Shown: piece after piece, positions 40,096 through 42,395 of the stretch
How positions within the stretch are numbered: position 1 is the first letter of the stretch
How the letters are laid out: every line of letters starts with the position of its first letter
Assembly (NCBI RefSeq): GCF_004365875.1
Contig: NZ_SODF01000002.1
Location: 1,364,001-1,428,000 of the forward strand
Length of the DNA stretch: 64,000 nucleotides
Reading direction: 5' to 3'
From: Kribbella kalugense
GTDB taxonomy: Bacteria > Actinomycetota > Actinomycetes > Propionibacteriales > Kribbellaceae
The notes under the pieces: model-generated
Told to the model about the DNA's origin: nothing
The model's input: only the letters and a program-made list of their open reading frames with translations
The model's database searches: none
Translations under genes and position numbers: made by a program

Positions 40096-40236
40096 TTCTG
40101 TTCCGGCCGGGGAATCGAGTTGGCGCTGTAACGCTCGAGGGGTTTAGCCGGGGTCCACTTTGCGCACAAGATGGCCATGGTGCCCATTTCTGATGTCGTG
40201 GGCATCTTTCTGGCCATTCGCGAAGGGAGCAGCACA

Positions 40237-40929
40237 ATGGGTCTCAACGACGACGACATGAACACCTCATCCGAGGGTGGCGAAGGCCTGGCCGACGGGG
40301 GCGCGAGCTCGGGAGCCACCGATGGTGGTGCCGACGGCGGCGCCGGCGGCGGGTACGAGGGTTCGGGCGGCGGCTCCTCGAGCGGCAATACATCCGGCGG
40401 GTACGGCGACGACGGGTCCTCGGGCGGCGAGGGTACTGCGGATGGCGGCGCGAACCCGGGTGGCTCTGATGGTGGAGCGGATGGCGGCGCGAGTTCCGGT
40501 GGCTCCGATGGCGGTGCCGACGGTGGCGCAGATGGCGGTGCTGGTGGTGGCGCGGGCGGCTACGGCCAGTCGGACGGTGGCGACTCGCAGGGCGGCTCCG
40601 ATGGCGGTGACTCCGGTGGTTCTGGTGGCTACGGCGAAGGCACTGCGGACGGTGGCGCAAACGAGGGTGGATCGGACGGCGGTGCCGATGGCGGCGCCGG
40701 CGGGTACGGCGGAGGCTCGGGCGGCGACTCGTCCGGCGGGTCCTCCTCGGACGGCGGCTCGGGTGGTGAAGGTACTGCGGACGGTGGCGCGAACCCGGGT
40801 GGCTCCGACGGCGGAGCTGACGGCGGTGCGAGCTCCGGTGGCTCCGATGGCGGTGCCGACGGTGGCGCAGATGGTGGCGCTGGTGGCGGCGCGGGCGGCG
40901 ATGCCGGCGGGAACTCCGGAAGCTGGTGA
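40237..40929 (+). CDS. Gly/Asp/Ala/Ser repeat protein, candidate precursor or substrate of the downstream oxygenase
   Basis: 230 residues, more than half Gly, the rest mostly Asp, Ala and Ser, with no Lys, Arg, His, Cys, Val, Ile or Phe. A short acidic leader (MGLNDDDMNTSSE) is followed by four repeats opening with GEG(T/L)ADGGA at residues 15, 64, 133 and 177. A 46-residue block is identical at 63-108 and 176-221. SDGGADGGA recurs, Tyr appears only between repeats and Trp is the last residue. AAGGGAG lies seven bases before the ATG. The stop overlaps the JmjC-type oxygenase start by four bases (GTGA). It has no signal peptide. It could be a ribosomally made peptide precursor or a structural low-complexity protein; no named family was recognised. 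Confidence 0.7.
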   Translation: MGLNDDDMNTSSEGGEGLADGGASSGATDGGADGGAGGGYEGSGGGSSSGNTSGGYGDDGSSGGEGTADGGANPGGSDGGADGGASSGGSDGGADGGADGGAGGGAGGYGQSDGGDSQGGSDGGDSGGSGGYGEGTADGGANEGGSDGGADGGAGGYGGGSGGDSSGGSSSDGGSGGEGTADGGANPGGSDGGADGGASSGGSDGGADGGADGGAGGGAGGDAGGNSGSW

Positions 40930-42224
40930 CCACCGTGCCGGAGTCCGGGCAGCTCCCGCCCAAACACGAGCCAACCTCCCACCAGCCAACCGGTGGCGAC
41001 TTGGTGCGGGACGAGTGCCCGGCACTCCGGCGCTGTGTGGCAGGTGACCTGAACGAGTTCGCCAGCTCCTACTGGGGTTCGCGAGCGTTGCTGTCCCACG
41101 GCCCGGACCTGCCCGCGCCGTACGACGACCTGTTCAGCCTGGAAGCCGTGGACGAACTCCTGTCCCGCCGCGGCCTGCGAACGCCTTTCCTACGAGTCGC
41201 CAGGAACGGCTCGGTCGTAGGCGACAGTCAGTTCACCGGACCGGCCGGCGTTGGCGCGGAGATCGCGGACCAGGTACGGGACGACAAGATCGCTGCCCTG
41301 TTCGCCAGCGGCCACACCGTCGTACTGCAGGCGCTCCACCGGACCTGGCCAGCACTCGTGGACTTCTCCACCCAACTGTCCGCCGACGCGGGTCATCCGG
41401 TACAGATCAACGCGTACATCACCCCGGCCGAGTCACAAGGCTTCTCCGCGCACTACGACGTACACGACGTCTTCGTGCTGCAGGTAGCCGGCGAGAAGCA
41501 CTGGACTGTGCACGAGCCGGTACATGTCGATCCACTGCGAGACCAGCCGTGGACGGACCACGCAAAGGCTGTTGCAGCGGCGGCACGAGACAAGGCGCCA
41601 GTGATCGACGAGGTACTGCGGCCCGGTGACGCGCTGTACGTGCCACGCGGGTTCCTGCACTCTGCCAAGGCTTTGGGCGGAGTCAGCGCGCACCTGACGG
41701 TTGGACTGCACACTCTGACGCGCTACCTACTCGTACAGGAGCTGGCCGGGCTAGCCGCCCACCAGGAGTCGCTGCGTACCGCACTGCCTCTTGGCTTCGA
41801 CCCCGGCGACCCAGAACAACTCGCCGAGATCCTGCCGCAGGTAGTCCAGCTCCTCACCCAGGAGATCCAATCCGCGACCCCGGACGCGCTGGCCGCTCGC
41901 CTCCGCCGCCGTACCTGGTCCGGCAACCGCCCGGCCCCACTCCCACCCCTGGCCCACGCCGCCTCGATCGCGTCCGTCTCCGTAGGCACCTCAGTCCGCC
42001 TCCGCCCCGGCCTCCGCTGCCGAGTCGTCCCCGGCGACCCAGTCGTACTCCAACTGCCGGACCGCACCATCACGTTCCCAGCGATCACCGGGACAGCAGT
42101 CACCGAACTCGCCTCAGGCGCCGACTGCAAGGTAGGCAACCTCCCCGGCCTGGACGACGCCGACCAGCTAGTCCTGGTCCGCCGCCTACTAACCGAAGCA
42201 GTAGTAGTAGCAACCACCCAATAA
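40926..42224 (+). CDS. JmjC/cupin-type 2-oxoglutarate-dependent protein hydroxylase
   Basis: 432 residues. The iron site is complete: HYD with His176 and Asp178, and His245 in GDALYVPRGFLHSAK; GEKHW (189-193) fits the 2-oxoglutarate-binding strand. The domain order (jelly roll, then helical dimer region, then a C-terminal winged-helix-like part) resembles YcfD/ROXA-type ribosomal oxygenases, which hydroxylate Arg or His side chains in proteins. GTG start overlaps the repeat-protein stop, so it is translated with that protein in a fixed ratio. Since that partner lacks Arg and His, a different residue such as Asp, Asn or Tyr would have to be the target if they act together. Confidence 0.85.
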   Translation: MTTVPESGQLPPKHEPTSHQPTGGDLVRDECPALRRCVAGDLNEFASSYWGSRALLSHGPDLPAPYDDLFSLEAVDELLSRRGLRTPFLRVARNGSVVGDSQFTGPAGVGAEIADQVRDDKIAALFASGHTVVLQALHRTWPALVDFSTQLSADAGHPVQINAYITPAESQGFSAHYDVHDVFVLQVAGEKHWTVHEPVHVDPLRDQPWTDHAKAVAAAARDKAPVIDEVLRPGDALYVPRGFLHSAKALGGVSAHLTVGLHTLTRYLLVQELAGLAAHQESLRTALPLGFDPGDPEQLAEILPQVVQLLTQEIQSATPDALAARLRRRTWSGNRPAPLPPLAHAASIASVSVGTSVRLRPGLRCRVVPGDPVVLQLPDRTITFPAITGTAVTELASGADCKVGNLPGLDDADQLVLVRRLLTEAVVVATTQ

Positions 42225-42254
42225 CCCCACCCAACCGCCGGCGGCATGCAGACG

Positions 42255-42296
42255 TGGGGAGGATCTTCTACCCAGAACGGCCCAGAATCCTCCCCA
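42255..42296 (+). terminator. Hairpin terminator after the oxygenase gene
   Basis: TGGGGAGGAT (42255-42264) pairs exactly with ATCCTCCCCA (42287-42296) around a 22-base loop. It closes the two-gene unit 30 bases after the oxygenase stop. Confidence 0.65.
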
Positions 42297-42395
42297 GCCT
42301 CATCCCACCGGTCCGTCCGGCAGGGTGAAGCAGGCGCCGACCGCGTGGTGCGAGGGTGCGGGTAGTTGAAGGCGGCAACCGTATTGTGAGGTGCT

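Follow-up and report, generated by a model that had tools for sequence, protein, structure and literature searches.

The closest described relatives of the system reported here are the JmjC-type ribosomal oxygenases NO66 (RIOX1), MINA53 (RIOX2), and YcfD (RoxA). The system itself is a pair of overlapping genes in a 64,000-nucleotide stretch of the Kribbella kalugense genome (contig NZ_SODF01000002.1, positions 1,364,001 to 1,428,000; the whole stretch is here called the window), the first encoding a Gly/Asp-rich repeat protein and the second a JmjC_2 (PF08007) oxygenase. Like NO66, MINA53, and YcfD, the oxygenase has the PF08007 domain with its HxD...H site and a full-length fold that includes a winged helix. 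Unlike these enzymes, it is tied genetically to an Asp-Gly repeat protein devoid of Arg, Lys, and His, it is patchily distributed in related genomes, and Arg residues R85, R90, R139, and R360 are found in all 49 alignment rows from the two clades, A and B, that are defined below. Factor inhibiting HIF (FIH; HIF, hypoxia-inducible factor) carries out beta-hydroxylation of Asn and Asp in ankyrin repeats, and its substrates are folded. FIH resembles the oxygenase in its JmjC fold (Z 13.6) but shares only 13% identity with it.

JmjC enzymes in the setting of ribosomally synthesized and post-translationally modified peptides (RiPPs) are already known in kind, because two papers, in the portions available to us, describe such cases (PMC12710340 and PMC12257519). 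BpmG and PbsQ are JmjC/cupin hydroxylases of biphenomycin-type RiPPs, and their target is ornithine made from Arg (PMC12257519). The likeness to our locus lies in a JmjC-type hydroxylase with a ribosomal precursor encoded nearby; however, the BpmG and PbsQ clusters, as presented in that portion of the paper, have several other enzymes, whereas here there are two genes, a long repeat array, and no Arg or Lys. For PF08007 JmjC proteins with ends resembling the RiPP recognition element (RRE), the closest bacterial homologues are placed in RiPP-like contexts (PMC12710340). These proteins share with the oxygenase the PF08007 domain and a winged-helix end, but the available part of that paper names neither an Asp-Gly repeat precursor nor a two-gene system. 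In the model of the oxygenase, the C terminus runs helix, four strands, helix, helix, strand, which is no plain match to the strict RRE order of three strands and three helices as described in the same part of PMC12710340. No description of an Asp-Gly repeat precursor with a JmjC enzyme was found among the matches listed from open-licence full texts.

What the data show is a genuine gene pair, selection on the amino acid sequence of the repeat, and joint occurrence of the two genes across the phylum. The pair is probably a functional unit in which the JmjC_2 enzyme hydroxylates the beta carbon of Asp in the repeat substrate many times over. As in the genomic part of the definition of a RiPP, a ribosomally encoded precursor adjoins a putative modifying enzyme; no widely shared family that could supply proteolytic or export genes was found among the ORFs (open reading frames) of at least 90 amino acids at 40 loci. 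The best reading is a minimal two-gene RiPP-like system with a predicted modification.

The repeat protein contains 106 Gly, 34 Ser, 30 Asp, and 26 Ala residues and ends in Trp; translation of its gene (40237-40929) agrees with the first-pass annotation of this DNA in finding no Lys, Arg, His, or Cys. The four repeats reported in that annotation open with GEG(L/T/T/T)ADGGA at residues 15, 64, 133, and 177. The N terminus carries the segment MGLNDDDMNTSS, many DGGADGGA tracts follow, and the C terminus reads NSGSW. The internal duplication, given initially as 46 residues, is indeed exact but is 47 residues long (residues 62-108 are identical to 175-221). At the DNA level the two copies show 15 base differences, 15 of 15 at codon position 3, and the eight occurrences of DGGADGGA in the gene are encoded by seven distinct DNA sequences. 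Since all of the differences are at third positions, selection acts on the amino acid sequence of the repeat protein, and the duplication is not a fresh one of the DNA; the silent differences and the seven codings together mean that the gene is neither a young DNA repeat nor a non-coding artefact. An alternative in-frame ATG at 40171 is possible, whereas the start M-(G/S)-(L/I/F)-(N/S)-D-D is common to most of the relatives' precursors. The protein had no family match in Pfam, NCBIfam, PHROGs, or PADLOC. A single-sequence AlphaFold2 model had no structure and low confidence (predicted local distance difference test [pLDDT] 42.1), as would be expected of a disordered chain.

The GTG start of the oxygenase gene at 40926 and the stop of the repeat gene share four bases (GTGA), the overlap that had been noted at first. 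The Pfam JmjC_2 score is 95.6 bits (cut-off 22), and the metal triad HxD...H is complete, as also noted previously: H176, D178, and H245, together with K191, are invariant across 53 aligned sequences. The structural model of the oxygenase has a mean pLDDT of 92.3, and the best solved folds matching it are NO66 (Z 29.7 over 384 aligned residues), MINA53 (28.5), and YcfD (21.0), with FIH following. The full-length NO66 match spans model residues 27-432, including the C-terminal winged-helix region, so that the model has the JmjC, dimerisation, and C-terminal winged-helix architecture (domain names as used in the available part of PMC6006756). NO66 was again the top match in a sequence profile search (E 3e-47). 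With these nearest solved folds, the oxygenase is assigned by its predicted fold to the ROX-type JmjC_2 family. It is the sole PF08007 gene found in the genome. The four alignment rows from outside clades A and B have V or L in place of R360, and R90 and R139 are common to three of the four. The conserved Arg residues would suit an acidic partner but prove nothing.

In a maximum-likelihood tree of 146 oxygenases, clade A (DGGA repeats) and clade B (DGT/DGD repeats) had SH-aLRT (Shimodaira-Hasegawa-like approximate likelihood ratio test) supports of 100 and 99, respectively. The tree is of a quick kind, with long branches in several outgroup rows; L051, for which an intact ORF was not found, was omitted, as was L056 by choice, and of the Kribbella rows every fifth was kept. 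Two members are odd: in clade A, L083, a long-branch second copy in genome G074, and in clade B, L130, a truncated gene with no repeat ORF. The typical clade A unit is EGPADGGAEGTPGVQDGGADGGA, some precursors, such as that at L089, are nearly pure (ADGG)n, and the typical clade B tract is GGDADGTDGDATDTTDGDAS. A short acidic N-terminal segment of the LxDD(D/E)(M/I)xT type is frequent in the precursors of both clades; a regular expression for this motif matched 97 of 146 precursors, compared with about 1.5 after shuffling. In the clade A precursors of L092 and L093, His often replaces the Gly after Asp (ADHGADHGAD), with Asp kept. In the clade B relative L249, the repeat is a hybrid, SADGTDQGVEGGTYGPRDA, and differs from the pure Asp-rich tracts.

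A repeat ORF consistently upstream of the oxygenase in actinobacteria was the check that the first-pass annotation had proposed. Loci were sampled across the order, class, and phylum, and an ORF was counted when it had at least 5 Asp residues followed by G, S, T, A, or H in a 40-residue stretch containing no more than 3 R, K, or C, and ended between -700 and +250 nucleotides (nt) from the oxygenase match. Such an ORF lies just upstream of 129 of the 130 clade A and B oxygenases (36/37 in Kribbella, 64/64 in other clade A, and 29/29 in clade B). The reverse-strand control gave 1/130 (0/37, 0/64, and 1/29, respectively), the downstream control 0/36 in Kribbella, 1/35 in other clade A, and 1/2 in clade B, and the further-upstream control 0/7, 2/34, and 0/29. 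The single Kribbella miss, L030, carries repeat units when read by eye. Five of the 30 remaining JmjC_2 genes also pass: L056 (the decayed locus of G002), the divergent clade A copy L083, L102, L218, and L223 (clade C). The acidic ORF upstream of L083 passes the loose criterion and has no clear repeat. With 6 Asp required in 40 residues, the counts were 35/37 Kribbella, 62/64 other clade A, 29/29 clade B, and 3/30 others; with 7 in 40, they were 21/37, 39/64, and 29/29, with 0 in every control and 0/30 others. A first criterion of 5 Asp in 30 residues had given 130/130, but 15/30 of the remaining JmjC_2 genes passed as well, as did 18/71 downstream, 12/101 reverse, and 8/41 further-upstream controls in clade A and 7/29 reverse and 5/29 upstream controls in clade B; because it passed up to a quarter of the controls, the Asp-(G/S/T/A/H) criterion took its place.

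The class-level clade A loci in these counts are the 29 top-scoring of 54 matches outside the order, all with E below 1e-70. Nine further clade A loci pass the adjacency test, eight with clear repeats and one (L190) without a clear repeat. In other classes of the phylum, an Asp-rich repeat ORF was found upstream in 16 of 17 clade B-like loci, these being the best-scoring of the 31 genomes with a match and being judged by a slightly looser adjacency rule; the exception, L256, begins at a contig end. No natural fusion of the repeat protein and the oxygenase was seen among the loci examined, and phage records gave no match. Plasmid records gave 29 matches, all below 60% identity. On a Streptomyces clavuligerus plasmid (L259), the gene for a cupin protein of 30% identity stands between a 147-nt hypothetical ORF upstream and genes for an S9 family peptidase and an ABC (ATP-binding cassette) transporter downstream, a RiPP-like cluster. 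On a Pseudanabaena galeata plasmid (L258), a gene for a LanM-type lanthipeptide synthetase is located three genes away from that for a cupin protein of 29% identity.

Of the 38 genomes of the genus Kribbella that were searched, 37 have the pair and one (G002) has it in decayed form. Among the 293 genomes of the order, 72 have a clade A oxygenase, and at least two copies of a DNA motif for EG(P/T)ADGGA occur in 61 of these and in 1 of the other 221; with one copy as the threshold, the figures are 65/72 and 11/221. The 72 comprise every genome with such an oxygenase except the decayed G002, a few of the genes being cut by a contig end or having an internal stop, and the Fisher and hypergeometric values obtained from these genome counts are descriptive, as the counts ignore relatedness. 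In the oxygenase-less exception, G208, the motif is 43 bases from a contig end. In genus g6 (84 genomes), clade A oxygenase and motif coincide exactly, both being present in the same eight genomes; 38 others have a clade B-like oxygenase and 38 have neither. In none of the 293 genomes were both clades found (35 non-Kribbella genomes with A, 52 with B-like, overlap 0), where the 52 are taken from the match table, the locus having been read in 28 of them and the G272 locus, at a contig edge, left out. A clade B query against the 35 clade A genomes and five Kribbella genomes matched only clade A genes, apart from a second paralogue in G031. The absence of genomes with both clades suggests, with relatedness of genomes ignored, that A and B serve one function and can stand in for each other. 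Three Kribbella-genus genomes (L052, L053, and L054) have a second JmjC_2 paralogue of ~33 to 38% identity without a repeat protein, located directly after an ORF that, judged by eye, resembles a major facilitator superfamily (MFS) transporter.

The two genes also decay together. In G002, the oxygenase exists only as fragments, and the upstream ORF has no EGxADGGA units and has gained Arg; its start, MGLNDDEMNTSS, and its end, NSGSW, are retained. In G220, a clade B oxygenase lacks the first 125 residues, and no repeat ORF was found. Decay of the oxygenase accompanied by decay of the repeat is consistent with an enzyme-substrate relation and fits a substrate left unmaintained after enzyme loss, although two cases are few. 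Adjacency, co-occurrence, and joint decay thus strongly support the pairing originally put forward. The other possibility raised at that time was that an ordinary ribosomal oxygenase lies by chance beside an unrelated low-complexity protein, and homologues regularly found without a repeat protein were to count against the pair. Distant JmjC_2 genes indeed mostly lack the repeat (25 of the 30 remaining genes), while clades A and B nearly always have it; the contrast between 129/130 and 5/30, the genome-level co-occurrence, and the distinct repeat types in the two clades leave a chance neighbourhood highly improbable.

As to the modified residue, the first proposal had been Asp, Asn, or Tyr. Asp, Gly, and Ala are the only residues present in all 146 repeat regions; Pro occurs in 131, Thr in 129, Asn in 65, His in 60, and Tyr in 36 (within Kribbella, Asn in 36/37 and Tyr in 30/37), these composition counts being affected by precursor starts that were chosen by rule and are in some cases too long. 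With Asn and Tyr each absent from many of the repeat regions, neither is likely to be a general target, and of the three residues proposed Asp is left. Asp is followed by Gly in 84% of cases in Kribbella clade A, 79% in other clade A, and 51% in clade B; in other classes of the phylum the value is 26%, and Ala is the commoner follower. Asp is the usual kind of side-chain target for enzymes such as FIH and other beta-hydroxylases and is for this reason favoured among Asp, Gly, and Ala.

According to the mechanism that we propose, the first gene would encode a disordered repeat substrate and the second its JmjC_2 2-oxoglutarate oxygenase. The LxDD(D/E)(M/I)xT-type segment, where present, could serve as a recognition sequence, perhaps for the C-terminal winged-helix domain of the oxygenase, and the repeat tract would be presented to the JmjC active site. 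There, the beta carbon of Asp would be hydroxylated in Asp-Gly (clade A) or Asp-Gly/Ala/Ser/Thr (clade B) at multiple positions per chain, and the product would be a poly-hydroxyaspartyl peptide. Our guess is that such a chain could bind iron or calcium. Because no protease, transporter, or second enzyme was seen to be conserved next to the pair at the 40 loci, the product may stay whole and intracellular. A broader and more tentative proposal, for which we would not claim even odds, is that hydroxylated polymers of this kind occur phylum-wide, with Asp arrays in (ADGG)n or (DGTDGD)n converted to 3-hydroxyaspartate in the cytosol, possibly as a metal or calcium buffer, and with clades A and B interchangeable.

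Several observations weigh against multiple Asp hydroxylation of the repeat protein. Gly and Ala, like Asp, are found in every repeat region, and only 17 of the 146 regions lack Thr and 15 lack Pro, so that composition alone is no proof of Asp. Backbone oxidation at the Gly C-alpha is possible and is the main chemical rival; the oxygenase might act on the repeat protein by this route, by desaturation, or by oxidative cross-linking. The universal presence of Gly and Ala would accommodate such chemistry, and 2-oxoglutarate RiPP enzymes have been credited with other chemistry (a title cited in the available part of PMC12710340). The solved JmjC_2 relatives NO66, MINA53, and YcfD are, however, named as side-chain hydroxylases, and no partner enzyme was seen conserved nearby at the 40 loci, which leaves the other chemistries a minority prospect of perhaps one chance in several. 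The N-terminal motif is present in only 23 of 64 non-Kribbella clade A precursors and missing from the other 41, so that a single mode of leader recognition is not general. Fewer than two motif copies occur in 11 of the 72 oxygenase genomes; nine of these are in families with variant repeats ((ADGG)n and ADHG tracts), two are Kribbella genomes with one copy, and those that were read have variant repeats. The decayed ORF in G002 is still Gly/Asp-rich and passes the loose Asp criterion. Unusually for RiPPs, conserved neighbours of the pair that might serve as protease, exporter, or other tailoring genes were not seen: when ORFs of at least 90 amino acids were clustered over the 40 loci (31 clade A and 9 clade B, 13 to 15 kb each), no family besides the pair and overlapping frames occurred in more than 7 loci.

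Finally, the solved enzymes closest to the oxygenase modify His and Arg in ribosomal proteins, and no other JmjC_2 gene was found in the genome, so that a further role on the ribosome is possible and a dual function is compatible with the data. Three points would favour a repeat protein that is a regulator, scaffold, or decoy while the oxygenase modifies another, for example ribosomal, protein: the fold is nearest to the ribosomal oxygenases NO66 and YcfD, the gene overlap suits complex formation, and the genome has this single JmjC_2 gene. However, the patchy distribution in genus g6 (8 A, 38 B-like, and 38 with neither among 84) argues against a ribosomal housekeeping role, Asp is retained among repeats that differ in number and kind, as would suit a substrate, and oxygenase decay is accompanied by repeat decay. 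We consider a regulator, scaffold, or decoy unlikely, though less so than a chance neighbourhood, and prefer the repeat protein as a substrate hydroxylated on Asp.

Bacterial JmjC_2 proteins are usually viewed as ribosomal oxygenases or, in the plasmid records for example, are annotated as "cupin domain-containing protein." If clades A and B hydroxylate peptide repeats, such labels miss the substrate, a short low-complexity ORF directly upstream. The pair would then offer a simple means, made of two genes, of hydroxylating a peptide at many sites, and its reconstitution should be easy; its product would be a hydroxyaspartate-rich biopolymer, with metal handling, stress, and oxygen sensing as candidate functions. 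Recurrence across the phylum suggests an overlooked class of enzyme-modified repeat peptide.

Coordinates of the gene pair and associated features, in positions of the window
Feature	Position	Strand	Basis or remark
Gly/Asp repeat protein, putative substrate	40237..40929	+	230 amino acids plus stop
JmjC_2 (PF08007) Fe(II)/2-oxoglutarate oxygenase, 432 amino acids, GTG start	40926..42224	+	Pfam, alignment, model
Likely ribosome-binding site AAGGGAG, upstream of the ATG at 40237	40223..40229	+	Read by eye
Duplication copy 1, residues 62-108	40420..40560	+	47 residues, exact
Duplication copy 2, residues 175-221	40759..40899	+	47 residues, exact
Hairpin-forming stretch past the oxygenase stop, without canonical T-run	42225..42325	+	Folding versus shuffles

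The 101 nt past the oxygenase stop fold better than shuffled sequences (z -2.37; 4 of 200 shuffles as good), and a terminator scan of this region found no canonical stem followed by a T-run. Of the terminator initially said to close the unit, the hairpin-forming stretch therefore stands and the canonical form does not. A promoter scan found none. The downstream sucrase/ferredoxin-like gene (PF06999, 42396-43388) was considered as a third component and set aside, as it is not widely shared among the 40 loci; stretches similar to it also occur near L092 and L112.

L219, L220, and L223 to L226 make up a third clade of JmjC_2 enzymes, clade C (support 99, family f20). At all six loci, a peptide of 35 to 38 amino acids such as MDPIEVEVEDLAEVTSRDITAGGDSDGTDGSSDFI is encoded upstream, each with a single copy of the clade B motif DGTD, and its ORF ends 165 to 265 nt upstream of the oxygenase match. 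At L220, L223, L225, and L226, a long ORF that we take, from a motif, to be S9 peptidase-like ends upstream of the peptide.

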